Shown one piece after another: positions 38,257-61,481 of a stretch of 64,000 nucleotides of DNA. This stretch comes from Noviherbaspirillum suwonense (GTDB lineage: Bacteria > Pseudomonadota > Gammaproteobacteria > Burkholderiales > Burkholderiaceae_D). The notes beneath the pieces were generated by a model. It had not been told where the DNA came from. It searched no databases and saw only the letters and a program-made list of their open reading frames with translations. The translations under genes were made by a program, and so were the position numbers. Location: assembly GCF_900182955.1 (NCBI RefSeq), contig NZ_FXUL01000012.1, forward strand, positions 62,001-126,000, written 5' to 3'. Position 1 is the stretch's first letter; the number at the start of each line of letters is the position of its first letter.

Positions 38257-38838
38257 TTATTTTTTGGCTGACTTGCGGCGCGCTGCTGTGAAAGCCAGCA
38301 GACCCAATCCTAGCATTGCAACCGTACCCGGTTCTGGCACTTGGGCCGTTACGTTAATGTTGTCAAAAGAATGATACGGGCTGGCTTGTGTCCACCTCAC
38401 AGAGGTCACGTTGTCGAACGACGTACCGAAGTTAAAGGTTTGCAGGTTATTCGCCGAATTTGTCCTGAACTCAGTCGAGGTGGTGCTGCCGTTCAGTAAA
38501 GTTCCAGTAAAAGTCACCGTGACTTGATAGCCACCATCTAAGCTATCCAGACCGATACTATCGAGGGAAAAAAGGCCACCGCCGATTTTTGTTAAGACCG
38601 TGACACCATTTATATTATTGTTGAAAAAGCCAGTGTTTCCGTCGTAACCAACGCTGCCCGAGTGAATCGAAGCAAAACCGTTAGTACCAGTGGTATCGAG
38701 TTGAAAGCCGTCTTCCTCATAGTGCTTTCCTCGATTGACGTCGCCATTGTTGCCAGTTAAGGAATTGAAGTCCATGACAACCGCACTAGCGTTGAATCCG
38801 ACAGTAGCGAGCAGAGCAGCGAGCAGAAAGCGTTTCAT
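38257..38838 (-). CDS. PEP-CTERM sorting-domain secreted protein
   Basis: A 193-residue exported protein. Signal peptide of about 19 residues (MKRFLLAALLATVGFNASA), a beta-rich, Gly/Asn/Thr-rich middle, and a C-terminal sorting tag: VPEPG, a hydrophobic segment (TVAMLGLGLLAFTA) and a basic end (ARRKSAKK). PEP-CTERM proteins are cut by an exosortase (EpsH/XrtA type) and sent to the cell surface or matrix. No exosortase is in this window, so it must be elsewhere. Lower GC than surrounding operons; strong terminator follows. Confidence 0.93.
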   Translation of the reverse strand: MKRFLLAALLATVGFNASAVVMDFNSLTGNNGDVNRGKHYEEDGFQLDTTGTNGFASIHSGSVGYDGNTGFFNNNINGVTVLTKIGGGLFSLDSIGLDSLDGGYQVTVTFTGTLLNGSTTSTEFRTNSANNLQTFNFGTSFDNVTSVRWTQASPYHSFDNINVTAQVPEPGTVAMLGLGLLAFTAARRKSAKK

Positions 38839-40472: not shown

Positions 40473-41357
40473 TCATTCCCTGCCAAGGAAGCGGATGAGT
40501 TCGTCACCGATCCGCTCAGGCGCTTCCCGCTGCGGGAAATGGCCGATCCCGTCGCAAACGACGCGCTCGTAGCGCCCAGTGAAATAATGCGCGCGGCCGG
40601 CGGATGTTTCCGGTGGATTGACCCGGTCGTCTTTCCCGTGAAGGACCAGGGTATCGACATCCAGGACCGGGGCCGGATTCAATGCGGCTTCGGCGCCGTC
40701 ATAGGCAGGGTCGCCTTCGGCATGGCCCCAGCGGTGCCGGTAGGAATGCAGGGTCACATCGGCCCAGTCCGCCTGGTCGAAGGCGGTGGCGGTTGCTGCA
40801 AACTCGTCCGGGTTATTCCATGGGCCAGGTGGCGACCAGGTATCCCACATGAATTTCGCGAATGCGCGGCCGTCGGTGCGCACCACCTGGTCGCCGCGCG
40901 GCGTGGCCATCAGCCAGTGGTACCAGTAGTTGCGCAGCATTTCCATCGATAGCGCCTGGTCCGGCTGGTTGGTCCCGTACCCCACAGAGAGCATCGCCAG
41001 GTGACTGGCGACGCCGGGACGCAGGCCGCAGGCGTTCGCGGCGGCACGCGCGCCCCAGTCGTGGCCGATGAGGGCAGGCTTGTCCAACTGGAGCGCATCG
41101 ATGAAGTCCAGCAGGTCGCATCCAAGAGCGGCAAGCTGGCCCGAGCGGATTTTGCCCGGGTCGCGGAAAGTCGTTGGCGCGAACCCGCGGACCGCCGGCA
41201 CAAGCACCCGCCAACCCGCGTCGGCCAGCCTGCCTGCCACCCCGTTCCAGGTGCGCGGACTATCCGGCCAGCCGTGGATGCAGATCGCGGTACGGTTGCC
41301 GCTTTCATTTCGCTCTCCATAGCCGATGCGCAGTGTCGGCGTATCGATGAATTTCAT
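40473..41357 (-). CDS. Alpha/beta hydrolase, epoxide hydrolase/dehalogenase type
   Basis: A 294-residue alpha/beta hydrolase. The oxyanion-hole HGWPDSPRTW (29-38) and the nucleophile elbow LIGHDWGARAA with D100 in place of Ser identify the epoxide hydrolase / haloalkane dehalogenase branch. The C-terminal catalytic His is in DGIGHFPQREAPERI. No signal peptide, so cytoplasmic. The ATG at 41357 gives the family start. It lies 66 bp downstream of the GntR gene on the same strand and may extend the catabolic block upstream. Confidence 0.85.
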   Translation of the reverse strand: MKFIDTPTLRIGYGERNESGNRTAICIHGWPDSPRTWNGVAGRLADAGWRVLVPAVRGFAPTTFRDPGKIRSGQLAALGCDLLDFIDALQLDKPALIGHDWGARAAANACGLRPGVASHLAMLSVGYGTNQPDQALSMEMLRNYWYHWLMATPRGDQVVRTDGRAFAKFMWDTWSPPGPWNNPDEFAATATAFDQADWADVTLHSYRHRWGHAEGDPAYDGAEAALNPAPVLDVDTLVLHGKDDRVNPPETSAGRAHYFTGRYERVVCDGIGHFPQREAPERIGDELIRFLGRE

Positions 41358-41423
41358 GGGGATCCCCCGGTTTTTCAACGGGCTTCGGGGGAAGTGCGGT
41401 CGCCCCATTACCGCCGGATGTTG

Positions 41424-42095
41424 TCAGGTTTCGACAGGCTGCTGCGCATGCAGGCGCGCAATCATGAAATCGGCGGCGTTGGTGATATGGCGCCGCGCAA
41501 GCTTTTCCGCCAGTTCGGAATTTCCGGCCATGATCGCGTCCAGGATCTCCACGTGCTGGTCCCATATGTTTCGCGGCCGTTCGTCGCGCATCAGCACTTC
41601 GCCCATCACGCGCTGCGTCTGCACCCAATTGGACTCCATCGCGGGCGCAATCAACGGGTTTTCCGAAAGCTGATAAATGAATTCATGAAATTTCATATCT
41701 GCCGCAATCATTCGCGTCACCGAACCGCTCAGCACCGCCTTGCGGCCGTTCTCGATCAGACCGGGCCCGATCTTCTTCGCCAGCGCTGCATTCCTTTCCG
41801 CTGCCTTGGCGCAGGCCAGCCCTTCCATGACGGCCCGAATATCGTACATATTCCGCACATGGTCGAGATCCATGGGCGCAACGATGAGTCCCCGCCCGGG
41901 GGCGTCATGCAGCACGCCCTGATTGCGCAACAGCAGCAGCGCCTGCTGCACCGGTTGCCGGGACACGCCGAGCAGCTGCGCAATCTGTTCCTGGATGATC
42001 CGGCTTCCCGGCGGGAGCTTGCCTTCGGCGATTTCAGAGAAAATGGCGGCGTAGACTTGTTCCACCAGCTTTGGAGAGGTTGCCAATTCCTTCAT
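41424..42095 (-). CDS. GntR-family regulator, FCD domain
   Basis: A 223-residue FadR/VanR-type regulator. The N-terminal winged helix is QVYAAIFSEIAEGKLPPGSR, QEQIAQLLGVSRQPVQQALL; the all-helical FCD effector domain follows from about residue 85 (VRNMYDIRAVMEGLACAKAA). These proteins usually repress uptake and catabolic genes until a carboxylic acid binds. It is the only GntR regulator here and lies in the same block as the TRAP/ThDP/SDR genes, so it is the first candidate for binding the CTGAATTCAG sites at 48.2, 48.3 and 50.2 kb. That link is inference. Confidence 0.9.
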   Translation of the reverse strand: MKELATSPKLVEQVYAAIFSEIAEGKLPPGSRIIQEQIAQLLGVSRQPVQQALLLLRNQGVLHDAPGRGLIVAPMDLDHVRNMYDIRAVMEGLACAKAAERNAALAKKIGPGLIENGRKAVLSGSVTRMIAADMKFHEFIYQLSENPLIAPAMESNWVQTQRVMGEVLMRDERPRNIWDQHVEILDAIMAGNSELAEKLARRHITNAADFMIARLHAQQPVET

Positions 42096-42521: not shown

Positions 42522-43301
42522 TCAAAGGGAACTGACCAGATGACCGCCGTCGACCGCGACGATGGCGCCGCTCATGTGACGGCCGGCCTCGCTTGCCAGC
42601 AGGAGCAGCGGGCCGTCGAGGTCTTCCGGCAGGCCAAAACGGCGCGTGGGAATGCGGGACCGCAGTTTTTCACCGGCCTGGCTGGCGAGGAAATCCCGGT
42701 TGAGGTCCGTCACAATGTAGCCGGGCAAAAGCCCATTTGCCCGGATGTCGTAGCGCGCCAGTTCGAGCGCCAGGGTCTTGGTTGCCTGCACCAGGGCCGC
42801 CTTGGAAATGGCATAGGGGGCCACGCCGCCCGCCACGCGCTGCCCGAGAATGGAGGCCACATTGACCAGGCTGCCGCCCTTGCCGGCGGCGACCATGCGC
42901 CTTGCTGCTTCCTGCGCGATCAGCCAGCTGCCTTTCAGGTTGGTGTCGACGACGCTGTCCCAGTCCTGCTCGGTCTGCTCGAGCAGCGCCTTCGTGATGG
43001 TGACGCCGGCATTGTTGACCACGATGTCCGGGCAGCCTGCGCGGGCGTCGATCTCGTCGAAGCAGCCGTGAACGGCGGCCGATTGCGTGACATCAAGGCC
43101 GACGGCCACCGCGTTCACGCCCAGCGCGCCAATCTCGTCAACCAGCGAAGCGAGCTTTTCGGCACGCCGCGCAGTGACGACGACATCGGCGCCGGCGCGG
43201 GCCAGTACCCGCGCGAAATGCCGTCCGAGTCCGCCGGAGGCGCCGGTGACCAGCGCCAGGCGGCCGTCGAGCCGGAAGATGGATTCAATCGCCCTGTCCA
43301 T
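42522..43301 (-). CDS. SDR family oxidoreductase
   Basis: A 259-residue classical SDR: cofactor loop TGASGGLG (19-26), VNNAGVTITKALLEQ, catalytic YAISK motif and the C-terminal ending GAIVAVDGGHLVSSL. Close in layout to gluconate 5-dehydrogenase/3-oxoacyl reductase-like enzymes; substrate unknown. The ATG at 43301 has GGGAGC upstream. It lies 63 bp after the ThDP enzyme gene and closes the TRAP-ThDP-SDR operon. Confidence 0.88.
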   Translation of the reverse strand: MDRAIESIFRLDGRLALVTGASGGLGRHFARVLARAGADVVVTARRAEKLASLVDEIGALGVNAVAVGLDVTQSAAVHGCFDEIDARAGCPDIVVNNAGVTITKALLEQTEQDWDSVVDTNLKGSWLIAQEAARRMVAAGKGGSLVNVASILGQRVAGGVAPYAISKAALVQATKTLALELARYDIRANGLLPGYIVTDLNRDFLASQAGEKLRSRIPTRRFGLPEDLDGPLLLLASEAGRHMSGAIVAVDGGHLVSSL

Positions 43302-43364
43302 GATCGCTCCCGTTAAATCCAGTTCAGCAAAGTCGCCGGGCGGCAAGGGCGCCGGCGTTCCCGT

Positions 43365-45086
43365 TCACGATTGCCGCCACTGGCGCTCGGCATCATCCCA
43401 CGCGGCCAGGGGCTGCAGGTCCGGCACCCAGGCCAGCCCCGATTTCGCGTCCGAGGAAGGCGCATCCGGCGTGACCAGCACATCGAGCAGGGCAGGCCGG
43501 TTCGCCAGCGCGCGGGCCATTGCCGCCGGGAGGTCTTCCGCGCGTTCGACCCGTTCGGCATGCATGCCAAAGGCCCGCGCCATGGCCGCGTGATCGGCGA
43601 ATTGCAGCCGCGTGCCGACCACCTTCCCGTGGGTTTCCTGCTGGTCGCGCACTTCGATCGCCCAGGAACCATTATTGGCGACGACGATCAGCAGCGGCGC
43701 ACGGTGGCGCACCGCCGTATCGATCTCCATTGCGTTGAAGCCAAACGCGCCATCGCCGGTGGCGACGACGACGGTCCGGTCCGGGCAGGCGAGGCTGGCG
43801 GCGATCCCGAACGGGGTGCCGATGCCGATGCAGCCCAGCGACCCGGGATCGAGATAGGTCGACGCCGGGAGGCCGACGCGCGCGAAGCTGAGAAAGTCCC
43901 CGCCATCGGCCACCACCACGGCGTCGTCAGGCAAGGCGTCGCGCATCACGGACAGCAGACGGTTCGGATGCATCAGGCCGTCGGCGCCGGGCGGCGCGGT
44001 GCGCATGGAATCGGCCAGTTTGCCGACCCGGCTAGAATGCCTGGCCTTGACCGCCTGCGCCCATTCCAGGTCCGTCGACGGTTTGCGGTCACCCGCCGCC
44101 TGCAGGATGGCTTCCAGCGCCGCCTCGGGAGTGGCCAGCAGCTCGACGGCGCCGCGGCGGTTGTCGCGCAGTTCGCCGGCGCAGTCTCCGATGCGCACGA
44201 AGCGCGCATCGCCGAAGACGGCGGGCGAGCCGTACGCCAGCTGGAAGTCCAGGCGGCGGCCAATGGTGATGATGAGATCCGCATCCCCCATCACCGAGCC
44301 GCGCATGGCTGCCACGACCGACGGATGATCGTCCGGCACCAGGCCGCGGCTTTCGCCCGTGTCGAGGTACAGCGCATGCAGCCGGTCGAGCAGGCGCACC
44401 AGCGATGGGCCTGCGGCTTTCGCGCCCCGCCCCGAGATCACCAGCGGCCGGCGCGCGGACCACATCAAGGCGACCGCCTCGTCGACCATGACCGGGTCGG
44501 GCAGCACGCGAACCGCGGGCCTGGCGGCGAAATACTCCGGCAGCTGCATTACCGGCGGCACGATCGCGCGCAGCGTGTCGACAGGGAAATCGAGATAGGC
44601 CGGGCCGGGTTCCCCGCATTCGCCGCGCGCGCGCGCGACGGCTTCACCCAGTTCCTGCAGCACGAGCTCGGGCTGGCGGACCGTGCGGGCATATCGCGTG
44701 AGCGGCCGCACGAAGTCCGTATGCGCCATATCCTGCAGCGCGCCGCGGTTTTCCTGCGGACGCGGCGGGGTCCCTGAAAGAATCAGCACGGGCGCCCGCG
44801 CCACGTGCGCATTGGCGATGCCTGTCATGGCGTTGGTGACGCCCGGGCCGGCCGTGACCAGCGCCACGCCGAGGCCGCCCGTGAGGTCCGCGTGGGCGTG
44901 CGCCATGTAGACGGCTGCGCGTTCGTCGCGGACGTCGACGATCTGGATGCCCTGTGCGTCCACCGCCATCCAGATGGGCATGATATGGCCTCCGCACAGC
45001 GCGAAGACGCGGTCGACGCCTTGCGCTTTCAGGAAGCGGGCGATCACGGCGGCGGCCGCATTTTGGGCGATCAGTTCTGCGTTCAT
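43365..45086 (-). CDS. Thiamine-diphosphate-dependent enzyme (acetolactate synthase-like)
   Basis: A 573-residue ThDP enzyme of the acetolactate synthase / benzoylformate decarboxylase / 2-hydroxyacyl-CoA lyase superfamily. The ThDP-activating Glu is E55 in DVRDERAAVYMA; PVLILSGTPP and GPAYLDFPVD mark the N-terminal and middle domains; the Mg-diphosphate motif is GDGAFGFNAMEID...VANNGSW. The C-terminal end is not that of true acetolactate synthase and no small subunit gene follows, so biosynthesis of branched amino acids is unlikely. With a CoA ligase nearby, a 2-hydroxyacyl-CoA lyase or decarboxylase role is conceivable. The start ATG lies 43 bp after the permease. Confidence 0.85.
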   Translation of the reverse strand: MNAELIAQNAAAAVIARFLKAQGVDRVFALCGGHIMPIWMAVDAQGIQIVDVRDERAAVYMAHAHADLTGGLGVALVTAGPGVTNAMTGIANAHVARAPVLILSGTPPRPQENRGALQDMAHTDFVRPLTRYARTVRQPELVLQELGEAVARARGECGEPGPAYLDFPVDTLRAIVPPVMQLPEYFAARPAVRVLPDPVMVDEAVALMWSARRPLVISGRGAKAAGPSLVRLLDRLHALYLDTGESRGLVPDDHPSVVAAMRGSVMGDADLIITIGRRLDFQLAYGSPAVFGDARFVRIGDCAGELRDNRRGAVELLATPEAALEAILQAAGDRKPSTDLEWAQAVKARHSSRVGKLADSMRTAPPGADGLMHPNRLLSVMRDALPDDAVVVADGGDFLSFARVGLPASTYLDPGSLGCIGIGTPFGIAASLACPDRTVVVATGDGAFGFNAMEIDTAVRHRAPLLIVVANNGSWAIEVRDQQETHGKVVGTRLQFADHAAMARAFGMHAERVERAEDLPAAMARALANRPALLDVLVTPDAPSSDAKSGLAWVPDLQPLAAWDDAERQWRQS

Positions 45087-45129: not shown

Positions 45130-47046
45130 TCACGGCTTGCCGGCGCCGCCAGCTGCCTGCGGCAGCAGGCAGGTTGAAATGGATGGGAAGGCAGCCACGA
45201 CGGCCAGGCCGACGAGCAGCGCCAGCACATAGGGCACGATGGGCCGGATTCCCTCGGAGGGGTTGACCCGCCCGATTGCGCAGGCGGCGTAGTAGCCGAC
45301 GCCGAACGGCGGCGCGAATAGCCCGATGCCCATCGCGAGGACCACCACCATCGCGTAGTGGACGTCATTCACGCCCATCTGGGCCGCGATCGGGAACATC
45401 AGGGGCCCGAACAGGACGATGGCCGGTATACCTTCGAGCACGCTGCCAAGGACGATGAACATCACGATGGAGACTGCCAGGAAGGTTCCCGCGCCGCCCG
45501 GCAGCGCCGCCATCGCGGCCGCCAGGCTGTTGGAAAACCCGGACTGGGTCAGGGCCCAGGCCATCGCGGTCGCGGTGCCGATGATGAACAGGATCGCGCC
45601 GGACAGCGCGGCCGTTTCGACCAGAATCGGGACCAGGCGATGCCAGTTCATCTGGCGGTAGATCACGATCCCGACGATGAAGGTATACACGATGCCCAGC
45701 GTCGAGACCTCGCTTGCCGTGGCGACGCCTTCGACCACGGCGGCCCGGATGACGAAGGGCAGGGCAATCGCAGGAAGCGCGGTGACCAGGGCCAGGATGA
45801 TTTCACGGCCGGTGGCCCGCCGGACGCCGGCCATGACTTCCTTCTTCGTGCGGAAAAACACGACGGCGCTCAGCGCGGCGGCCAGCACCAGCGCAGGCAG
45901 CATCCCGCCGCTGAACAGTGCGGCAATGGACACGCCCGTCACGGACCCGATCGTAATGAGCACCAGGCTGGGCGGGATGGTCTCGGTCTGCGCGCCCGTC
46001 GTCGCCAGCAGCGCAACCAGTTCTCCCGAGGTCATGCCGCGTTTGCGCATCTCGGGAAACAGCACCGGCGTGACCGCGGCCATGTCGGCCACCTTGGAGC
46101 CGGAGATGCCGGAGACGAGGTACATCGCGCCGATCAATACATAGGACAATCCGCCGCGCACATGGCCGAGCAGGCTGGCGAGAAAGGCGACCATGGCACG
46201 CGCCATCCCGGTCATCTCGATGAGCAGGCCGAGGAACACGAACAGCGGCACCGATATCAGGATGATGTGGGACATGCCTTCGTCCATCCGGCCGACGAGC
46301 ACGGTGATGGGCAGGGTGGTCGTCAGCGTCAGGAATCCGAAGGTGGCCAGGCCGAATGCCACGGCTATCGGAATGCCGAGCAGGACCGTGATGCCCGACA
46401 CGCCCACGAAGAAGATCACCAGGTTGAGGTTGCCAAGGTCCTGCAGCAGCGGCCTGGCGGCTGCAAAGACCGCGAAGAGGACCGCAACTGCCGCAACCGA
46501 TGCCGATATGAGCCGCCAGTTGCCCGACTTGAACAGGCGGATCAAGCTCATCATCGCCATCAGCGCAAGCCCCACCGGCAAGGCCGCGGCGCGCCAGGCG
46601 TTCGAGAGTTCGAGCGCAGGCGTGACGATATGGATTTCCTCGGATGCATATTCATAGGCCGGGCCAAGCGCGAACACGAGGAAGGCCAGCGCCGCGGCAA
46701 TGGCGACGGTATCGAGAAATGCCTGCCTGTCCGGCGAGGTCCTGGCGACCAGCGCGGTCATGCGCATGTGCTCGCCCCGCCGGAAGGCAACGACCGACCC
46801 CAGGCTGGCAAGCCAGAGGAACAGGATGGATGCCGCTTCGTCGGTCCACGGGAGCGGGGTGGACAGGTAGTAGCGGGCAATCACGCCTGCCAGCAGGATC
46901 AGGATCTCGCAGACGATCAGCAGCGCAGCGAGGTACTCCACCGTGGCGCCGAAGACCGCTTCGATGCGGCGTGCCCGCTGTGCCGTGACGGTTGCACCGA
47001 ATGGCACCGCCCGGTCATGGCCGCCGTGAGTCGATGTGATGGTCAT
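45130..47046 (-). CDS. TRAP transporter permease, DctQ-DctM fusion
   Basis: A 638-residue inner-membrane protein joining the small (DctQ, about residues 25-200, four helices, ARYYLSTPLPWTDEAASILF) and large (DctM, from about 205, about 12 helices, with VSGISGSKVADMAAVTPVLF and GLFAPPFGVGYYAACAIG) TRAP subunits in one chain. It uses an ion gradient to import the acid delivered by DctP. The ATG at 47046 lies inside the end of dctP, so the two genes are coupled. Fused QM forms are known in many TRAP systems. Confidence 0.92.
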   Translation of the reverse strand: MTITSTHGGHDRAVPFGATVTAQRARRIEAVFGATVEYLAALLIVCEILILLAGVIARYYLSTPLPWTDEAASILFLWLASLGSVVAFRRGEHMRMTALVARTSPDRQAFLDTVAIAAALAFLVFALGPAYEYASEEIHIVTPALELSNAWRAAALPVGLALMAMMSLIRLFKSGNWRLISASVAAVAVLFAVFAAARPLLQDLGNLNLVIFFVGVSGITVLLGIPIAVAFGLATFGFLTLTTTLPITVLVGRMDEGMSHIILISVPLFVFLGLLIEMTGMARAMVAFLASLLGHVRGGLSYVLIGAMYLVSGISGSKVADMAAVTPVLFPEMRKRGMTSGELVALLATTGAQTETIPPSLVLITIGSVTGVSIAALFSGGMLPALVLAAALSAVVFFRTKKEVMAGVRRATGREIILALVTALPAIALPFVIRAAVVEGVATASEVSTLGIVYTFIVGIVIYRQMNWHRLVPILVETAALSGAILFIIGTATAMAWALTQSGFSNSLAAAMAALPGGAGTFLAVSIVMFIVLGSVLEGIPAIVLFGPLMFPIAAQMGVNDVHYAMVVVLAMGIGLFAPPFGVGYYAACAIGRVNPSEGIRPIVPYVLALLVGLAVVAAFPSISTCLLPQAAGGAGKP

Positions 47047-47053
47047 GATCGGC

Positions 47054-48067
47054 TCACGCGATGTCGCCGGCATATTTGCCCAGCAGCGTCCATGCTTCCT
47101 CGCCGAACTTCTCCTTTACCTGCGTGTAGAAATTCGTGGCGCGCAGCGCCTTTTGGAAGGGAGCGGAATCGACGGCATTAAATGTGAGTCCCTTGCTTTC
47201 CAGCTTTTTCTGCAGGTCGAGGTTGGCGCGCGCAATGTCCTCCCGCTGCTTCAGCGCGGCCGCATTGATGTGCTTGGCCAGGACCTGCTGCACGTCCTTC
47301 GGAATGGTTTTCCAGATCCGTCCATTTGCAATGAACCAGAAGCCGTCCCAGGAATGATTGGTCAGCGAGCAGTATTTCTGGACTTCATAAAACTTTGCCG
47401 ATTCGATCAGGGCGAGCGGATTTTCCTGGCCATCGGCAACCTTGGTCTGAAGCGCCTGATACGCCTCGCTCAGCGGCAGGCTGACCGGCGCGGCGCCCAG
47501 CGCGCGGAACATCGACACCCACAGCGGCACCACCGGCACGCGGATCTTGAAGTTCTTCAGGTCATCGGGTGTGCGGATCGGACGCGTGCTGGACGTGATC
47601 TGGCGGTAACCGTTATCCCACACGGTGTCGAAGGGTACGAGATTCACCTTCTCGATGCTCTTCCTGATATGCCCGCCCAGGTCGCCGTCCATGGCTGCCC
47701 AGACACGGTCATAGGACGAAAAGGCGAAGCCGACGCCGGTAATGGCCGTGGCGGGGATCAGGGTGGACATGACGGTGCCGGGGAACGTGGCCAGCTCCAG
47801 CGCGCCGGACCGGATCTGGGACATCATGTCCGAGTCGCTCCCCAGCTGATTGTTCGGAAACAGCTGGATGGCGACCCGCCCGTTCGTCTCGGCGGCAATC
47901 GCTTCGATCGCCTCCTTGAGCCGCACATTGACCGAGTGCGTCATCGGCAGGTCCGTCCCCAGCTTGAGCTTGAACTGCGCTGCGCCTTGCCCCCACGACA
48001 ATGGCGTTAACGATGCGATTCCCGCCGCGGCGCCGGCACGCAAAATCTGTCTGCGATGAAAGTCCAT
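47054..48067 (-). CDS. TRAP transporter substrate-binding protein DctP
   Basis: A 337-residue periplasmic receptor with an N-terminal twin-arginine-like signal (MDFHRRQILRAGAAAGIASL). Typical DctP blocks: LKLGTDLPMTHSVNVRLKEA, the ligand-binding Arg segment NFKIRVPVVPLWVSMFRALG and GLGANPVSLPLSEAY-like APVSLPLSEAYQALQTKVAD. DctP proteins bind carboxylates through an Arg; the ligand here is probably an organic acid. GGAGAC precedes the ATG. It is the first gene of the operon that starts at the promoter 48206-48234. Confidence 0.92.
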   Translation of the reverse strand: MDFHRRQILRAGAAAGIASLTPLSWGQGAAQFKLKLGTDLPMTHSVNVRLKEAIEAIAAETNGRVAIQLFPNNQLGSDSDMMSQIRSGALELATFPGTVMSTLIPATAITGVGFAFSSYDRVWAAMDGDLGGHIRKSIEKVNLVPFDTVWDNGYRQITSSTRPIRTPDDLKNFKIRVPVVPLWVSMFRALGAAPVSLPLSEAYQALQTKVADGQENPLALIESAKFYEVQKYCSLTNHSWDGFWFIANGRIWKTIPKDVQQVLAKHINAAALKQREDIARANLDLQKKLESKGLTFNAVDSAPFQKALRATNFYTQVKEKFGEEAWTLLGKYAGDIA

Positions 48068-48180
48068 GATGTTTGTCTCCGTCGTTATGATTAATTTGCA
48101 AGCAGCACCGCAGGGGCGAGCCACGCCATCGCCCGGAGAGGAAAGGCCGGGTAATTCCGACCGCAACCTCATGCATTTGG

Positions 48181-48198
48181 AACTCTGAATTCAGAGTT
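48181..48198. promoter_or_regulatory. Operator 1, AACTCTGAATTCAGAGTT
   Basis: A perfect 18-bp palindrome at the predicted start of transcription of the minus-strand dctP operon. Core CTGAATTCAG is shared with sites at 48295 and 50186. Its place just after the -10 box suits repression. Confidence 0.8.
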
Positions 48199-48205
48199 CA
48201 ATTTG

Positions 48206-48234
48206 ATTCTCGTAGTGGTTCCGCTGCTTGTCAA
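48206..48234 (-). promoter_or_regulatory. Predicted promoter of the dctP operon
   Basis: On the minus strand TTGACA (48234-48229), a 17-bp spacer and GAGAAT (48211-48206), followed within 8 bp by operator 1. Confidence 0.7.
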
Positions 48235-48257
48235 GGCAAATATCGACAAAAAAAGTT

Positions 48258-48287
48258 TTGACGGCGTCCACAAATTCGGGATATAAG
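48258..48287 (+). promoter_or_regulatory. Predicted promoter of the acyl-CoA ligase gene
   Basis: TTGACG (48258-48263), 18-bp spacer, TATAAG (48282-48287), followed 8 bp later by operator 2. Leader of about 95 nt. Confidence 0.7.
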
Positions 48288-48294
48288 TTCACCG

Positions 48295-48312
48295 AACTCT
48301 GAATTCAGTATT
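48295..48312. promoter_or_regulatory. Operator 2, AACTCTGAATTCAGTATT
   Basis: Left half identical to operator 1, right half diverged, and followed by a further CAG-containing half (TATTCAGAA). It sits at the predicted +1 of the ligase promoter. Confidence 0.75.
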
Positions 48313-48388
48313 CAGAAATAGGGCACGGCATGGCGCACGGGCCCGTCAGCGTTAACGCTAGTCAAGAACAGTATTCATGGAGACACGA

Positions 48389-49951
48389 ATGAACCATTTA
48401 CTGACGATTGCCGACGCCGTTGCCACGCATGCCCGACTCAGCCCGCACAAGGTAGGGCTGCAGGATTCAACGCGGGCACTGACCTTTAACGACTGGAACC
48501 GGCGTGCATGCCAGTTGGCAAACGGTCTGCTCGATCTGGGCCTCAACAAGGGCGACCGTGTGGCATTGCTGGCCTATAACTGTATCGAATGGGCGGAAAT
48601 CTACATCGGGCTGGCGCGGGCCGGCCTGGTCGCAGTGCCGATCAATTTCCGGCTGACCGGCCCCGAAATTGCCTACATCATCGAGCACAGCGAGGCGTCG
48701 GCAGTGATCGTGCAGGACGCACTGATGGAAAGCGTCGCGTCCATCCGCAGCCAGCTCAAGCTGGCTGAACACGGCTATGTGCTGATAGGGCAGGAAACGC
48801 CGGGGTGGCTTGCCTACGAAACGCTGCTCGGCGCCGCCAGCAGCAATCCGCCCGCGGTGACGGTCACGCCTGAAGATCCCTTCGCGCTGATGTACACCTC
48901 CGGCACTACCGGCCGACCCAAGGGCGCCATACGCAGCCACGCGGGAAACGCGCTGCTGGCGTTTGCGACGGCGCTCGAGTTCGGGTTCGGCCGCGACGAC
49001 CGCGGACTGATCGTCATGCCCATGTGCCATGCCAACTCGCTCTACTTCAGCCTGACGTTTATCTATCTCGGCGCCAGCATCATCATCGAGGACAGGAAGA
49101 GTTTCGATCCCGAACACCTGCTTGCGATGCTGTCCAGCGAGAAAGTCACGTTCACCTCGCTGGTGCCGACGCATTACATCATGATGCTCGGGCTGCCCGA
49201 GGCAGTCCTGAAAAAATACGACGTCAGTTCGGTGGAAAAACTGCTGGTTTCCTCCGCGCCGGCGCGGCGGGAAACCAAGCTGGCGATCATGAACCATTTT
49301 AAAAACTCCCGCCTTTTCGAGCTCTATGGGGCAACCGAACTGGGTTGGGTGACCATCTTGCGCCCGGAAGAGCAGCTCGAAAAACTTGGGTCGGTCGGGC
49401 GGGAATGGGCAGGCAGCGGGGCGATCAGGCTGCTCGATCCGACCGGCCGGGAAGTGCCGGACGGCGACGTCGGTGAACTGTATTCGCGTACGTCCTACGT
49501 CTACGATGGCTACTGGAAAAACCCGGAAAAGACCGCGGAGTCGTTTCACGGCGCGTGGTGTTCGGTCGGCGACCTGGCGCGCCGGGACGCCGATGGCTAT
49601 ATCCACCTGGTCGATCGCAAGAGCAACATGATCATCAGCGGCGGCGAAAACATTTATCCGTCTGAAGTGGAGAGCGCAGTCGGCGCGCATCCCGCCGTCA
49701 AGGATGTTGCGGTGTTCGGCATCCCGGACAGCAAATGGGGCGAGACGGTGCATGCCGCAGTCGTGCTGCATCCCGACCGGTCGGTGACGACGCAGGAACT
49801 GTCCGCGTGGTGCGCCGAACGGCTCGCACGTTTCAAGATCCCGCGTTCCTTCTCGTTCCTGCTGGACAAGGATATGCCGCGCACGGCCACCGGGAAGATT
49901 CTGCATCGCACCTTGCGGGACCGGTTTATCGAGGAGCGCCGGCAGGCATGA
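48389..49951 (+). CDS. Acyl-CoA synthetase (AMP-forming ligase)
   Basis: A 520-residue adenylating enzyme that activates a carboxylic acid with ATP and CoA. The P-loop is YTSGTTGRPKGAIRSH (from Y169), then ELYGATELGW (A5), DLARRDADGYIHLVDRKSNM (A7/A8), SGGENIYPSEVE and the catalytic Lys near the end in RTATGKILHRTLRD. The ATG at 48389 has GGAG at 7 bp; the earlier ATG at 48377 contains that ribosome site. No signal peptide. It is divergent from the TRAP operon and shares its operator, so the imported or oxidised acid is the likely substrate. Confidence 0.92.
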   Translation: MNHLLTIADAVATHARLSPHKVGLQDSTRALTFNDWNRRACQLANGLLDLGLNKGDRVALLAYNCIEWAEIYIGLARAGLVAVPINFRLTGPEIAYIIEHSEASAVIVQDALMESVASIRSQLKLAEHGYVLIGQETPGWLAYETLLGAASSNPPAVTVTPEDPFALMYTSGTTGRPKGAIRSHAGNALLAFATALEFGFGRDDRGLIVMPMCHANSLYFSLTFIYLGASIIIEDRKSFDPEHLLAMLSSEKVTFTSLVPTHYIMMLGLPEAVLKKYDVSSVEKLLVSSAPARRETKLAIMNHFKNSRLFELYGATELGWVTILRPEEQLEKLGSVGREWAGSGAIRLLDPTGREVPDGDVGELYSRTSYVYDGYWKNPEKTAESFHGAWCSVGDLARRDADGYIHLVDRKSNMIISGGENIYPSEVESAVGAHPAVKDVAVFGIPDSKWGETVHAAVVLHPDRSVTTQELSAWCAERLARFKIPRSFSFLLDKDMPRTATGKILHRTLRDRFIEERRQA

Positions 49952-50151
49952 GTCGCCATGCGTGACTCGCAGTGCAGAGAGAGCACCGAGGTAGCGCGCG
50001 CAACGCCAGGAAGCTGGATAAGCGAGCGCGACTCGTCGTCTGGAGGGAATGACGTTGGGTTATGCCTACCTGCGTCGTTAAGACGCGTGATGCCGCAGCG
50101 GACCCGTTTCCTAGATCCACACCATCGCACGAATGCAATGCCAATATTTTC

Positions 50152-50179
50152 TTGACAAGAGATGTCGGAACGCTAAACT
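50152..50179 (+). promoter_or_regulatory. Predicted promoter of the Rieske-PQQ dehydrogenase-aldA unit
   Basis: A perfect TTGACA (50152-50157), 16-bp spacer and TAAACT (50174-50179), with operator 3 starting 6 bp later. Confidence 0.7.
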
Positions 50180-50185
50180 TAATGT

Positions 50186-50201
50186 ATTCTGAATTCAGAA
50201 T
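50186..50201. promoter_or_regulatory. Operator 3, ATTCTGAATTCAGAAT
   Basis: A perfect 16-bp palindrome overlapping the predicted +1. The CTGAATTCAG core equals that of operators 1 and 2. Confidence 0.8.
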
Positions 50202-50438
50202 CCCGAATGCGACGCGAAACCGACGTGAAACGCGCTGATTCATTAAAGCAAGACTGAAAGCGGGCTTTCCAGAGGGTCCAGCCTTACCCGGCACCGCGAG
50301 CAATTAATCGCCGCCTGACGAACGGTCGGAAGAAACCGGAACGATCAGGGTGCTTGAACGGCTGCCTGCCGCCGCTACCTTTCGTTCAGGGTCGGCGGAC
50401 GGCAAGTTTTTCTACTAATTAATAACGTGGAGACTATC

Positions 50439-51059
50439 TTGACTGATCGAAAAACGAAGACGGCTGCATTAAGCGACCTCGTCCCGGACACGGGTCTGGA
50501 ACAGCGGCGCACTGTCCTGCGCGCAGCGGGAAGCCTCGCTGTCGCGTCGCTGAGCGGCGGCTTCATTCCCATCGCACTGGCGGAAGAGAATTCGAGTCGC
50601 CCGAAGGCCGGCCATCGGCTGGTTCTGGCGGATGAGGCCGACAAGCGCGTGCCCTTGCAGGTAAGCGACATCCCCCTGAATGGAAAGCCCGTGTTCGCTT
50701 TCCCTTACGACCTGGACAGTAAAACGGCCCAGGACGGGTCGCGGCTCAACAAGGTGGCGCTCGTCAAGGTGGACGCGGCATCCCTGAGCGACGACGCGAA
50801 AAAATTTGCGGTCGACGGCGTGCTGGCGTTTTCTTCCGTCTGCACGCACCAGGGGTGCGATGTCACGGAATTCGTGGCCAAGGAACATGCGCTGATGTGC
50901 TTCTGCCACTTCTCGAAATTCGATGTCCTGAAAAGCGGCGCCGTCGCAGCCGGGCCGGCGCCGCGGGACCTCCCGTATCTCCCGCTGAAAGTCGAAAAGA
51001 ATCAACTGGTCGTTGCCGGCGGCTTTAGTTCGACACCCGGCGTGAAGAAGACCGGTTGA
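50439..51059 (+). CDS. Exported Rieske [2Fe-2S] protein
   Basis: A 206-residue protein with a twin-arginine-type signal (EQRRTVLRAAGSLAVASLSG; RR at 23-24) and one Rieske cluster: C135-T-H137, with C154 and H157 as the second ligand pair, plus C140 and C156 placed for the stabilising disulfide of bc1-type Rieske proteins. The start is likely TTG at 50439, with GGAG 6 bp upstream; GTG at 50427 overlaps that site. No quinone-reductase partner genes are near. Encoded directly before a PQQ alcohol dehydrogenase without a cytochrome domain, so it may carry its electrons; this is inference. Confidence 0.85.
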   Translation: MTDRKTKTAALSDLVPDTGLEQRRTVLRAAGSLAVASLSGGFIPIALAEENSSRPKAGHRLVLADEADKRVPLQVSDIPLNGKPVFAFPYDLDSKTAQDGSRLNKVALVKVDAASLSDDAKKFAVDGVLAFSSVCTHQGCDVTEFVAKEHALMCFCHFSKFDVLKSGAVAAGPAPRDLPYLPLKVEKNQLVVAGGFSSTPGVKKTG

Positions 51060-51156
51060 CGGTCCAGTCAGGCGCCCAAAGGCGCACCTGGTCATGGACG
51101 TGCCGGAAGAGCTTGCGGTTTAAACGTTGCTGGAAAAATGGAAGGAAGGAGACATG

Positions 51157-52902
51157 ATGAATAAAACACTCAGCAGTCTGGCGCTGGTTAACGCATTGAT
51201 CGTGCCGCTCAGCGTGCATGCCGACGATCCCCCGAGCAGCAGCGGGCCGTTGAAGGCATACAGCAAGGTGACGGACGCCCGCCTCACCCAACCCGAGCCG
51301 CAAAACTGGCTGATGTATCGCGCCAATTACGCGTCCTGGGGCTACAGTCCGCTCAAGCAGATCACGACCGAGAACGTGAAGAACCTGAAGCTGGCATGGA
51401 GCTATTCGACCGGCATGACCGAAGGCCACCAGGCGCCGCCGGTCGTCAATAACGGGTACATGTACGTGACGACGCCCAATAACCAGGTCATTGCCTTCGA
51501 GGCGAAGTCGGGCAAGGAACTGTGGCGCTACAAAAAAACGATTCCGGAAGAGTTGCAGCAGCTGCATCCGACCAACCGCGGCGTTGCGCTGTACGGGGAC
51601 AAGGTCTACATCGCCACCACCGACGCATTCGTCGTCGCTCTGGACGCGGTGACGGGGAAGGAAGTCTGGAAGACGGCGTCGGCGGACTGGAAGCAGGGTT
51701 ACTACTCGACGCTGGCGCCCCTGGCGGCCGAGGGCAAGATCATGATCGGAGTCTCGGGCGGCGAATACGGCATTCGCGGTTTCGTTGCCGCCTTCGATGC
51801 CGAGACCGGAAAGGAAGTCTGGCGCCGCTACACGATCCCCGCGCCCGGCGAGAAAGGCTCGGAGACGTGGCCGAAGGACGACGCCTGGAAAACGGGCGGC
51901 GGGCCGGTGTGGGTCACCGGCAGCTATGACCCGGAGACCAAGGTTTCGTACTGGGGCGTCGGCAATGCGGCGTCCTGGATGCCGGATACCCGCAAGGGCG
52001 ACAACCTGTTCTCGACGTCCGTGATCGGCATCGACATCCGGAGCGGCGAACTCAAGGGCTTCCACCAGTACCATCCGAATGACGCATGGGACTGGGATGA
52101 AGTTTCCGCACCGCTGCTGATCGATATCGAGCGCAAGGGGAAGAAGGTCAAGTCGCTGGTGCATGCCGGGCGGAACGGCTACCTGTGGTGGCTCGAGCGT
52201 TCGCCGAACAAGATCGACTTCGTCGACGCCTGGCCATTCGTGCTGCAGAACGTCTTCACGGGAATCGACAAGAAGACCGGCCGTCCAAGCTACGATCCGG
52301 CGCGCATCCCCCAGACCGGCAAGACCGTGAATTTCTGTCCGTCGCTCTGGGGCGGCAAGGACTGGCCGCCCGAAGCCTACAACCCGCAGACCGGCCTGCT
52401 CTACATCCCTGCCAATAACAACCTGTGCGCGGAAATCACCGGCATCCCGACCGGGAAGCACAAGCCGGGCGAACTGTACATCGGTGTGGGGCTGGACAAC
52501 ATCCTCACCCATGTGCGCCTGACTGACGAGTCCCGCAAACATATCGGCGAGGTGCAGGCATGGGACATGGCCACCGGCAAGAAAGTCTGGACGCAGACCT
52601 TCCCCGCGATGAACTGGGGTCCCCTGCTGACGACCGGCGGAAATCTGGTGTTCGGCGGCGGCACCAACGACCGGAAGTTCCGGGCCTTCGATGCCAGGAA
52701 CGGCAAGGTGCTGTGGGAGTTCGCCGCCAACTCCGGCGTGATCGGCGTGCCGTCGACATTTGAAATCGACGGGGAGCAGTACATCGCCGTGCAGGCCGGA
52801 TGGGGCGTCGACGCCCAGCGCATGCAGGGCGCGTTCGACGCGGTCATGCCGCAAAAGACGCCGGTACCACAGGGCGGCGTGATCCACGTGTTCAAGCTCT
52901 AG
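51157..52902 (+). CDS. PQQ-dependent alcohol dehydrogenase, lanthanide-type ligand set
   Basis: A 581-residue periplasmic quinoprotein with an eight-bladed propeller and a short signal (LVNALIVPLSVHA). Metal/PQQ residues by comparison with methanol dehydrogenases: E203 (GGEYGIRG), N270 (GVGNAASW), catalytic D312 and, two residues on, D314 (NDAWDWDEV). Asp at +2 is the mark of lanthanide-dependent XoxF-type enzymes, whereas calcium enzymes carry Ala or similar. The vicinal Cys pair of methanol dehydrogenase is replaced by Q135-L136. There is no fused cytochrome c. GGAGAC precedes the ATG (51154 or 51157). It oxidises an alcohol to an aldehyde, presumably passed to AldA. Confidence 0.9.
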   Translation: MNKTLSSLALVNALIVPLSVHADDPPSSSGPLKAYSKVTDARLTQPEPQNWLMYRANYASWGYSPLKQITTENVKNLKLAWSYSTGMTEGHQAPPVVNNGYMYVTTPNNQVIAFEAKSGKELWRYKKTIPEELQQLHPTNRGVALYGDKVYIATTDAFVVALDAVTGKEVWKTASADWKQGYYSTLAPLAAEGKIMIGVSGGEYGIRGFVAAFDAETGKEVWRRYTIPAPGEKGSETWPKDDAWKTGGGPVWVTGSYDPETKVSYWGVGNAASWMPDTRKGDNLFSTSVIGIDIRSGELKGFHQYHPNDAWDWDEVSAPLLIDIERKGKKVKSLVHAGRNGYLWWLERSPNKIDFVDAWPFVLQNVFTGIDKKTGRPSYDPARIPQTGKTVNFCPSLWGGKDWPPEAYNPQTGLLYIPANNNLCAEITGIPTGKHKPGELYIGVGLDNILTHVRLTDESRKHIGEVQAWDMATGKKVWTQTFPAMNWGPLLTTGGNLVFGGGTNDRKFRAFDARNGKVLWEFAANSGVIGVPSTFEIDGEQYIAVQAGWGVDAQRMQGAFDAVMPQKTPVPQGGVIHVFKL

Positions 52903-53046: not shown

Positions 53047-54486
53047 ATGAGTGCGGTTTACCAGAATTTCATCGATGGCCAGTTCGTCGATCAGAAGCAC
53101 AGCGAAGAGATCGAGGTCCTCAATCCGGCGACCCATCAGCCGGTCGGATCGGTGCCGGAAAGCACGGACGACGAAGTCGACGCCGCCATTGCCGCGGCAC
53201 GTGCGGCGCAGCGAAGCTGGGCCAAGCTCCCCGCGATCCAGCGCGCCGGCCATCTGCGCGCCATTTCAGCCAAGCTGCGCCAGCATGTGGACCGGCTGGC
53301 CCGGCTGATCACGTCCGAGCAGGGCAAGACCCTGGAGCTGGCGAAGGTGGAAGTCAACTTCACGGCCGACTACATCGACTACATGGCGGAATGGGGCCGG
53401 CGCATCGAAGGGGAAGTCATCACGAGCGACCGCGCGAACGAAACCATTTTCCTGCTGCGCAAGCCGCTGGGCGTCGTCGCCGGCATCCTTCCGTGGAACT
53501 TCCCCTTCTTCCTGGTGGCGCGGAAGATGGCCCCTGCGCTCATTACCGGCAACACCATCGTGATCAAACCGAGCGAAGAAACCCCGATGAACGCGTTCGA
53601 GTTTGCCAAGCTGGTCGCCGAAACCGATCTACCGAAGGGCGTCTTCAACCTTGTCAGCGGTAAAGGCGCATCGGTGGGAGCACGCCTGTCGGGCAGCAAG
53701 GATGTCAACATGGTGAGCTTCACCGGCAGTGTCGCGGTCGGCTCGCAGATCATGAAAGCGGCATCGCAGAACCTCACGCGCGTGAACCTGGAACTCGGCG
53801 GCAAGGCGCCTGCGATCGTGCTGGCGGATGCGAACCTGGATCTTGCCGCGAAGGCCATCTGGGACTCCCGGATCACCAACACCGGCCAGCTTTGCAACTG
53901 CGCCGAGCGTATCTACGTCCAGGCCAGCGTGGCGGACGCGCTGACGGAAAAGATCGCCGCCCATATGAAGGGCACGCGCTACGGCGATCCGCTGGCCGAA
54001 TCCACGCTGCACATGGGACCGCTCATCAACCGCCAGGGCCTGATGAAGGTTGACGAACTCGTGCGCGGAGCGCTTGCCCAGGGAGCGGAACTGGTCACCG
54101 GCGGGCGGATTGCCGACCGGGAGAAGGGATACCACTATGAACCGACGGTCCTGGCAAACTGTGGGCATGGCATGAATATCATGCACCAGGAGGTGTTCGG
54201 CCCGGTCGTTCCGATCCAGAAGGTCGACAGCCTGGAGGAAGCCATCAGGTATGCGAACGACAGTGAATACGGGCTGACATCCTCGATCTTCACGTCCAAC
54301 CTGAACCATGCAATGCAGGCGTGTAACGAGCTGGAATTTGGCGAGACCTACGTCAACCGGGAGCATTTCGAGGCCATGCAGGGCTTCCATGCCGGTCGAC
54401 GGAAATCCGGCATCGGCGGCGCTGACGGCAAGCATGGTTTGTATGAGCACCTGGAAACGCAAGTGGTGTACATGAACCACGCTTAA
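53047..54486 (+). CDS. aldA: Lactaldehyde/glycolaldehyde-type aldehyde dehydrogenase
   Basis: A 479-residue NAD-dependent aldehyde dehydrogenase, the same length as E. coli AldA and very similar: FTADYIDYMAEWGRRIEGE, GILPWNFPFFLVARKMAPAL, general-base Glu in LELGGKAPAIV (about 249), catalytic Cys in GQLCNCAER (C285 by AldA numbering), and FEAMQGFHAGRRKSGIGGAD at the end. AldA oxidises L-lactaldehyde, glycolaldehyde and similar 2-hydroxyaldehydes. Placed after the PQQ alcohol dehydrogenase, it should convert that enzyme's aldehyde product to a (hydroxy) acid for the CoA ligase. AAGGAGA precedes the ATG. Confidence 0.92.
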   Translation: MSAVYQNFIDGQFVDQKHSEEIEVLNPATHQPVGSVPESTDDEVDAAIAAARAAQRSWAKLPAIQRAGHLRAISAKLRQHVDRLARLITSEQGKTLELAKVEVNFTADYIDYMAEWGRRIEGEVITSDRANETIFLLRKPLGVVAGILPWNFPFFLVARKMAPALITGNTIVIKPSEETPMNAFEFAKLVAETDLPKGVFNLVSGKGASVGARLSGSKDVNMVSFTGSVAVGSQIMKAASQNLTRVNLELGGKAPAIVLADANLDLAAKAIWDSRITNTGQLCNCAERIYVQASVADALTEKIAAHMKGTRYGDPLAESTLHMGPLINRQGLMKVDELVRGALAQGAELVTGGRIADREKGYHYEPTVLANCGHGMNIMHQEVFGPVVPIQKVDSLEEAIRYANDSEYGLTSSIFTSNLNHAMQACNELEFGETYVNREHFEAMQGFHAGRRKSGIGGADGKHGLYEHLETQVVYMNHA

Positions 54487-55124: not shown

Positions 55125-55592
55125 ATGAAAGAAAATGGCCTGGATGAAATCGACCGTAAGATCCTGCGGAACCTGAGCCGCGACGGGCGCATCAGCAATC
55201 AGAAGCTCGCCGCCATGGTGAACCTGTCGCCGACGCCGTGTTGGAACCGGGTGAAGGCGCTGGAGGAAGCCGGCTTCATCACCCAATATGTCGCGCTACT
55301 GGACCAGCGTGCCCTTGGCCTGCCGGACACCGTCATCATCGAAGTCACGCTCGAGCGGCATGACGACGAAATTTTCGAGCGTTTCGGCAATGCGCTGGCG
55401 ACGCTGCCGGAGGTCATGGAGGCTTATCTCCTGACCGGCGAATACGATTACCTGATCAAGGTGGCAGTCTCCGGGACGGAAGGATACGAGCGGTTTCTAA
55501 GGCAGAAACTCTACAAGATTCCGGGTATTCGCCACAGCCGGTCCACCTTTGCGCTGCGCTGCCTGAAGCGTGTCCATTCCGTGGAGCCCTGA
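55125..55592 (+). CDS. Lrp/AsnC-family transcriptional regulator
   Basis: A 155-residue regulator with an N-terminal helix-turn-helix (LDEIDRKILRNLSRDGRISN, LAAMVNLSPTPCWNRV) and a RAM effector domain (GLPDTVIIEVTLERHDDEIF, AYLLTGEYDYLIKVAVSG). Full family length. Such proteins form octamers and sense amino acids or related metabolites. It stands alone between aldA and the polysaccharide genes; it could act on either side, but nothing in the sequence decides this. Confidence 0.92.
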   Translation: MKENGLDEIDRKILRNLSRDGRISNQKLAAMVNLSPTPCWNRVKALEEAGFITQYVALLDQRALGLPDTVIIEVTLERHDDEIFERFGNALATLPEVMEAYLLTGEYDYLIKVAVSGTEGYERFLRQKLYKIPGIRHSRSTFALRCLKRVHSVEP

Positions 55593-60500: not shown

Positions 60501-61481
60501 ATGCGAAACGGTTTGGGTGTGTGTGGTACGTTCGCGCTGGTTCTGGGACCGGCCCTGTTGAATCTTTCATCTGCGGCGGCGCAGGAGGCAGGCGTTCCCA
60601 AAATGATAAAGATCGTCGTTCCCTTTTCTGCCGGCGGGAGCAACGATCTGTTTGCGCGCGCCGTCGCGCAGAAACTCGGGGCAAGGCTCGGCACGAATGT
60701 CATCGTTGACAACCGTCCTGGCGCCGGCGGAACAATCGGGACGGAAGCGGTGGCGCGTGCGGATGCGGACGGGGCAACGTTGCTGCTGACATCGACATCA
60801 TTTGCGACCAACGCTGCCGTGCAGGCCAAACTGCCGTACGACCCCGTCAAGTCTTTCGCGCCCGTTGCGCTCGTAGCCAAGGGCGCGATGGTGCTTGTCG
60901 TCGGCAACAACACGCCGTACAAGTCGTTCGGCGATTTGATGAAGGTCGCAAAAGACGGCAAGAATACATTGAACTATGGATCGGCCGGCCCGGGTTCGAT
61001 CGGCCAGATGAGCACGGAGCTGCTCAACTCGGTCGCTAAAACGACCTCGCTGCATGTCCCTTACAAGGGCATCAGCAATGCGGTGACCGATATGATCGGC
61101 GGCAATATCGACTTCATGATTACCACGTTTGCTTCAGTGGGAGGCCAACTGAAGGCCGGGCAGATTCGACCGGTCGCGGTGACGTCGCAGCAGCAATCAA
61201 AATTCCTGCCCAACGTGCCCCCGATCGCGGACACGGTGCCTGGCTATCAGGTCGATGTCTGGTGGGCCATGTTTGCACCGGCAAAGACTCCATCGCCGAT
61301 GATCGCGAAGCTCAATGCGGCAGTTCGCGAAGTGAGCGTCCAGCCGGACATGATCACGCTGTTTGCCCAGGAAGGCGCCGAACCGACGGCGCTGACACCC
61401 GAACAGACCGGCGCCTACGTAGGAGAAGAAGTGGATAAGTGGAAGAAACTTGCTCGAGAGCGCAATATCACCGTGAACTAA
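60501..61481 (+). CDS. Bug-family substrate-binding protein
   Basis: A periplasmic receptor of about 326 residues: signal MRNGLGVCGTFALVLGPALL ending near SSAAAQ, then the Bug landmarks IKIVVPFSAGGSNDLFARAV, VIVDNRPGAGGTIG and NYGSAGPGSIGQMS. The ATG at 60501 has GGAGAAG upstream; earlier in-frame ATGs at 60477 and 60489 overlap the operator. The gene is convergent with iclR and probably delivers the substrate handled by the CoA-transferase and the TauD-like enzyme downstream. Ligand unknown. Confidence 0.88.
   Translation: MRNGLGVCGTFALVLGPALLNLSSAAAQEAGVPKMIKIVVPFSAGGSNDLFARAVAQKLGARLGTNVIVDNRPGAGGTIGTEAVARADADGATLLLTSTSFATNAAVQAKLPYDPVKSFAPVALVAKGAMVLVVGNNTPYKSFGDLMKVAKDGKNTLNYGSAGPGSIGQMSTELLNSVAKTTSLHVPYKGISNAVTDMIGGNIDFMITTFASVGGQLKAGQIRPVAVTSQQQSKFLPNVPPIADTVPGYQVDVWWAMFAPAKTPSPMIAKLNAAVREVSVQPDMITLFAQEGAEPTALTPEQTGAYVGEEVDKWKKLARERNITVN

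Follow-up and report, generated by a model that had tools for sequence, protein, structure and literature searches.

A 20-bp palindrome shared by three promoters of a 2-hydroxyacyl-CoA lyase gene cluster, the probable operator of an FCD-type GntR regulator

GntR regulators of the FadR (FCD) subfamily normally bind operators with the consensus TKGT/ACMA (PMC4494728, seen in part). These boxes are widespread in the subfamily but do not define it, and exceptions are known. Two described gene clusters for the use of 2-HIBA offer the closest comparison for the locus considered here. Actinomycetospora chiangmaiensis has a 2-hydroxyisobutyrate lyase-HCL cluster that shows strong induction on 2-HIBA, and no operator is named in the accessible part of the report (PMC7176365). 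In ibc cluster 2 of Mycolicibacterium sp. ELW1, according to the sections available to us, a FadR/GntR regulator adjoins the 2-HIBA genes and a ThDP lyase, and the regulation of isobutylene catabolism in this strain is stated as not understood (PMC13188929). Among literature titles and the beginnings of abstracts, with subscription journals and RegPrecise outside the scope, we found no described GntR operator for 2-hydroxyacyl-CoA lyase (HACL) genes.

The window analysed here, a stretch of 64,000 nucleotides from Noviherbaspirillum suwonense, contains a cluster (Table 1) whose genes, as judged from their sequences, are those of a 2-hydroxyacyl-CoA lyase pathway. Domain and family scans place the diol/alcohol dehydrogenase, aldehyde dehydrogenase, ligase and lyase classes together in this one cluster. 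As far as the consulted text describes the A. chiangmaiensis cluster, the two share the HACL, a CoA ligase, alcohol and aldehyde dehydrogenases and a GntR gene beside the lyase; unlike it, the present cluster is betaproteobacterial and includes a PQQ dehydrogenase with a Rieske protein, a TRAP transporter and an SDR (PMC7176365). The Mycolicibacterium cluster, in contrast to this one, follows a mutase route (PMC13188929, in part). The ThDP enzyme scores 820.6 bits against NCBIfam NF058623 (cut-off 600) and matches PDB 7pt1, the actinobacterial HACL of Actinomycetospora, with an E value of 3.3e-182 (the start codon is inferred, and the query, P0002, carried seven extra residues upstream). In an alignment that reaches chain residue 598 and covers the lid region (numbered via an inferred chain offset of 11), it is identical to 7pt1 at Glu493, L127, I492 and Q128, while Q41 is replaced by Cys. 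Glu493 is described as catalytic and L127 and I492 as size-limiting, with a lid formed by the C-terminal region (PMC8760513, seen in part). The substrate, and the inducer, would be a short 2-hydroxy acid such as 2-hydroxyisobutyrate. A search for the gamma subunit of acetone carboxylase found it in 2 of 20 genomes without HACL but in none of the 15 with HACL, the present genome among them, so that a reading from 2-hydroxyisobutyrate to acetone is left without one known acetone route. Elsewhere in the window, positions 38257-38838 encode a PEP-CTERM protein.

Three promoters of the cluster have in common a 20-bp palindrome, GNAYTCTGAATTCAGARTNC, two copies of which occupy the intergenic region between the divergent dctP and acyl-CoA ligase genes, while the third precedes the Rieske/PQQ-dehydrogenase unit. 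The original prediction had proposed one shared palindrome at these promoters, and the exact 10-bp core CTGAATTCAG is indeed present at all of them (48185-48194, 48299-48308 and 50189-50198). It had, however, described palindromes of 16-18 bp lying 6-9 bp from the -10 box: the core and its place after the -10 box stand, but the element is longer, at 20 bp, and the gaps (6, 6 and 4 bp) are consequently slightly shorter. The palindrome is predicted to lie at the transcription start. The two promoters detected by the scanner are weak evidence alone, because 0.9 were expected in shuffles.

Table 1. Features of the cluster, in window coordinates
Feature	Position	Strand	Details
alpha/beta hydrolase, directly downstream of GntR	40473..41408	-	regulon membership uncertain
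GntR, FCD (FadR) subfamily, proposed repressor	41424..42095	-	recognition helix SRQPVQQAL
Short-chain dehydrogenase (SDR)	42522..43346	-	
ThDP-dependent 2-hydroxyacyl-CoA lyase, AcHACL type	43365..45086	-	NF058623, PDB 7pt1
Fused TRAP permease DctQM	45130..47073	-	
TRAP solute-binding protein DctP (start inferred)	47054..48067	-	
Operator 1 (candidate)	48180..48199		perfect 20-bp palindrome GAACTCTGAATTCAGAGTTC; 34.2 bits; 6 bp past dctP -10
Promoter of the dctP-dctQM-HACL-SDR unit, sigma-70 type	48206..48234	-	TTGACA-17-GAGAAT; scanner, 10/12 matches
Promoter of the acyl-CoA ligase gene	48258..48287	+	TTGACG-18-TATAAG; by eye, absent from scanner list
Operator 2 (candidate)	48294..48313		GAACTCTGAATTCAGTATTC; 32.5 bits; 6 bp past ligase -10
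Acyl-CoA ligase (AMP-binding), proposed 2-hydroxyacyl-CoA ligase	48377..49951	+	substrate inferred from context
Promoter of the Rieske/PQQ-dehydrogenase/aldA unit	50152..50179	+	TTGACA-16-TAAACT; scanner, 10/12 matches
Operator 3 (candidate)	50184..50203		GTATTCTGAATTCAGAATCC; 31.1 bits; 4 bp past Rieske/PQQ unit -10
Rieske [2Fe-2S] protein	50427..51059	+	
PQQ-dependent alcohol dehydrogenase	51127..52902	+	TIGR03075
Aldehyde dehydrogenase	53047..54486	+	NF007497, above cut-off

The element is rare. Allowing up to one mismatch, the core has six matches in the window against 1.89 expected, a number reached in one of 100 shuffles; a fourth exact copy (2250-2259) lies inside an ORF (1691-2347) and is without arms. 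Across the genome (6.45 Mb in 78 contigs), a search that the original prediction had called for, the 10-mer occurs at six places against one for a reversed control. Three of these are the cluster copies, and the remaining three are armless, reach 2.1, 3.7 and 10.1 bits with the operator matrix described below and all lie within ORFs (mechanical ORFs, not proven genes). Further regulon members were sought with a 12-mer at two mismatches, which gave 82 forward matches in the whole genome against 28 for the control; among the matches listed, ten places outside the cluster were scored, all of them in ORFs, with one at 25.0 bits (contig C6, about position 60762), which may be a further site, one at 15.0 and eight at no more than 10.1. 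The full 20-bp element is not a motif that recurs at random in many unrelated promoters. As a separate feature, operator 1 and its relatives contain an internal 7-bp repeat (GAAYTCN), which forms four tandem units in loci L089 and L103.

For comparison, 94 loci were fetched, recruited via the HACL gene and not via the motif. An operator matrix of 20 bp and about 29.5 bits was built from these relatives, seeded on the predicted core; it replaced a low-threshold first matrix (294 sites) that had also picked up a frame offset by 7 bp. In 95 sequences (1.38 Mb, with the window and four duplicates included), the matrix detects 132 sites above 16 bits, against none in each of five Markov-simulated sets of equal size. 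Within the 90 distinct fetched loci, 119 sites reach at least 20 bits, none of them inside a homologue of a cluster gene: 104 precede a homologue of ACS, HACL, DctP, Rieske or GntR by no more than 420 bp, and the remaining 15 are located elsewhere. In two relatives, operators outside the HACL cluster show, by eye, the same promoter geometry, one (L130:1499-1518) preceding an ORF that resembles, again by eye, an ABC transporter binding protein and the other (L133:1499-1518) beside a PQQ-like fragment. Genes for an acyl-CoA dehydrogenase and an APH-type phosphotransferase also recur beside HACL (for example L048:12547-13743 and L059:13616-14701; families present in 26 and 14 loci, respectively), and these families clustered with no ORF of window positions 37001-60000. 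Three of the loci (L085, L090 and L108), which hold environmental-type HACL genes, come from metagenome bins under the names Bordetella parapertussis or Klebsiella pneumoniae, and these titles look wrong.

The position of the element relative to the promoter is conserved as well. A promoter was recognised in 46 of the 234 flanks examined, leaving most without one, and in 34 of these 46 the operator starts 0-7 bp past the -10 box (4.5 of 19.0 in shuffles), which fits a repressor that covers the start site. We propose that the palindrome very likely serves as operator for the FCD-type GntR protein whose gene lies at 41424-42095, and that this protein would repress the three pathway units until an inducer binds. 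Without inducer, a GntR dimer would occupy the 20-bp element just past the -10 box and block RNA polymerase at the three promoters, silencing the dctP-dctQM-HACL-SDR operon, the acyl-CoA ligase gene and the Rieske-PQQ dehydrogenase-aldehyde dehydrogenase unit. Binding of a short-chain 2-hydroxy acid, either 2-hydroxyisobutyrate or something closely related, or of the corresponding CoA ester to the FCD domain would then release GntR, so that all steps of the route could be produced together: oxidation of a diol or alcohol to the hydroxy acid, TRAP uptake, CoA activation, and cleavage by HACL to formyl-CoA and a ketone or aldehyde.

FCD regulators include both activators and repressors, and the same GntR protein might activate from these sites, or repress some promoters and activate others. 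In some relatives two operators are separated by 41-45 bp (so in 14 of the 24 neighbouring pairs within 150 bp), a spacing that would suit such a role; the predominant placement of the operator just past the -10 box is, however, suited to blocking polymerase rather than recruiting it, and we regard activation or a dual role as unlikely. Of the coordinated repression originally proposed, the coordination is borne out by the comparison, which points to one regulon, while repression rather than activation is suggested by the position of the sites.

Both domains expected of an FCD-type GntR protein are present in the candidate regulator (PF00392, 47.9 bits with a cut-off of 27; PF07729, 82.7 bits with a cut-off of 24.3), and as a query it has a single match at E<=1e-30 in its own genome. 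Four of its residues (D, H, H and H) align with PDB 7xp0, at what we take to be the metal/carboxylate site of the FCD domain. The operator is closely linked to the orthologues of this gene: among 91 distinct loci (90 fetched plus the window, after removal of the window fragment L022 and the duplicates L024, L025, L026 and L028), with GntR counted by the helix SRQP(V/I)Q(Q/H)(A/S)L, 68 have both, 19 neither, three the operator only and one GntR only. The corresponding Fisher p of 1.6e-15 ignores relatedness and overstates independence, because the loci are related by descent. This count replaced an earlier tally by GntR identity of at least 40% (72 both, 2 GntR only, 5 site only and 16 neither). 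The recognition helix is near-invariant among operator-linked orthologues, and in several relatives (L101, L106, L107, L137 and L140) the operator precedes the GntR gene itself, whereas in this genome no autoregulatory operator was found within 450 bp of the GntR start.

A different protein might bind the palindrome, for instance the Lrp homologue at 55125, which adjoins the cluster 0.6 kb beyond aldA, or a regulator encoded elsewhere. Against this, Lrp homologues occur in only 2 of the 95 loci listed, many of which have short flanks, and GntR is the sole transcription-factor family recognised among 52 ORF families present in at least six loci (representatives judged by eye, not all library-scanned). 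Moreover, of the 22 loci without such a GntR gene in view, 19 lack the palindrome, and its occurrence ahead of GntR genes in relatives likewise argues for GntR, which leaves another regulator very unlikely. The original prediction, which preferred GntR as the regulator of a single regulon and ranked Lrp as the weaker candidate, was thus right about the element and very probably right about the regulator: the preference is strongly supported by the linkage and by the sites upstream of cluster-gene homologues, binding itself being a prediction. Finally, that the palindrome is an RNA element (a hairpin or terminator) or a chance repeat is scarcely credible, for although operator 1 is terminator-like (the scan gave three terminator-like sites, with 2.8 expected from shuffles), the copies stand at promoters before genes of both directions and simulated sequence yielded no site above 16 bits.

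The three operator-only loci are short contigs, where the GntR gene may be out of view, and 3 of the 19 loci with neither (L048, L109 and L114) show 10 kb on both sides. Three further members of this class, L033, L035 and L036, were fetched with flanks of only 1.5 kb; their genomes (G004, G121 and G260, respectively) encode a GntR protein of 50-52% identity outside the fetched stretch, directly preceded by the operator, which is exact in G121 and G260 but has one mismatch in G004. L083 retains 18 of the 20 operator bases at a contig edge, while L087 and L099 carry more distant GntR relatives (46-47%) without operator. A real exception is L045: it encodes two GntR proteins that share the helix, yet no site there exceeds 16 bits. 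In L048 (980-3007) the HACL/ligase/PQQ pathway is kept, but the regulator has apparently been swapped: a gene for a sigma-54 activator of the PrpR type (PrpR_N) points away from the ligase gene, and no GntR gene and no operator occur within 10 kb.

Whole genomes of the family give a similar picture. The exact 16-mer pattern is found in 9 of 15 HACL-bearing genomes versus none of 20 without HACL, and 16 of its 18 places are near HACL or GntR genes. With one mismatch the figures become 14 of 15 versus 10 of 20, so that single weak sites mean little. In five of the six HACL genomes without the exact 16-mer, a site with one mismatch lies at the cluster or ahead of the GntR gene; the sixth, G003, has only the variant CCGAATTCGG, at 27.4 bits. 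All 15 HACL genomes encode a GntR protein of at least 50% identity, compared with matches at E<=1e-30 in 2 of the 20 others (46% and 42%).

The proposed regulator resembles the FadR subfamily in combining an FCD domain with a GntR winged helix, in its palindromic operator, in the retained helix Arg (SRQP) and in serving divergent operons with one or two sites, and differs in that the GT/AC boxes become GA/TC (TGAATTCA) with a helix that reads SRQPVQQAL (PMC4494728, in the part consulted). Over distinct sites the consensus is TGAATTCA, with A at -2 in 94% (the matrix having been seeded on that core); it differs from the GT/AC rule at one symmetric base, having TGAATTCA instead of TGTATACA with the outer G kept, and does not contain the TKGT/ACMA boxes 2-3 nt apart that are usual in the subfamily. 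BioR and NanR provide a precedent as FCD proteins that likewise fall outside the TKGT/ACMA rule, and their sites (TTATMKATAA and TGGTATAW repeats, respectively) differ strongly from the present operator (PMC4494728, same part).

More distant GntR relatives, with the helix SRQPV-L-QAL instead of SRQPV-Q-QAL, mostly have TGTATACA before their own genes. We surveyed the own promoters of 136 distinct GntR genes, scoring the outer arms and reading the centre unscored. Sites at the threshold of at least 12 were found for 30 of 91 Gln-helix genes (centres: 21 AATT, 4 AATA, 2 TATT and 3 others) and for 28 of 44 genes with a Leu, Ile or Gly helix (25 TATA and 3 others), whereas 61 Gln genes and 16 others had no own-promoter site at this threshold. 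The single Arg-helix gene (L161 in G004:C19, helix SRQPVRQAL) has the centre GATC, in a GGATCC-centred palindrome; this case is weak, because the site lies within a larger inverted repeat. No more cases in which Arg would read G were found among further loci from the genus of G004, and of six occurrences of TTCTGGATCCAGAA in 330 genomes, the one in L161 is the only one next to a GntR helix. Operators of the TGTATACA type also belong to a distinct and widespread group of FCD-GntR proteins, mostly with the helix SR(Q/S)PVLQAL (L159, L162-L167, L191-L198 and L205-L226), and mostly lie within 150 bp ahead of the group's own gene.

We tentatively suggest, while leaning slightly towards doubt, that the residue at the second x of SRxPVxQAL determines which base pair the operator carries at one symmetric position, and may thereby keep paralogous regulators in one cell apart, with Gln specifying A (TGAATTCA), Leu, Ile or Gly specifying T (TGTATACA) and perhaps Arg specifying G (TGGATCCA). 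This helix-base link is based on a single clear transition together with one weak case. In a FastTree phylogeny of 137 GntR proteins (rooted at the midpoint, without support values and with a few duplicates among the tips), the Gln type forms one clade of 92 tips within which the Arg protein is nested; the link between Gln and AATT therefore amounts to one evolutionary event, not many, and the switch of one residue and one base is to be read as a hypothesis. Other differences between the clades could be responsible for the contrast between the Gln and Leu operators.

Taken as a whole, the comparison makes a well-supported case for a new regulon with an off-consensus operator and a regulator of a known family. 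It names a concrete operator, together with a regulator and its targets, for the 2-hydroxyacyl-CoA lyase pathway; the HACL of this pathway is an enzyme relevant to one-carbon chemistry and to the breakdown of fuel-ether residues. An inducible sensor for short 2-hydroxy acids would become possible, and the comparison of paralogues leads to a testable rule on how FCD-GntR proteins may choose their DNA.
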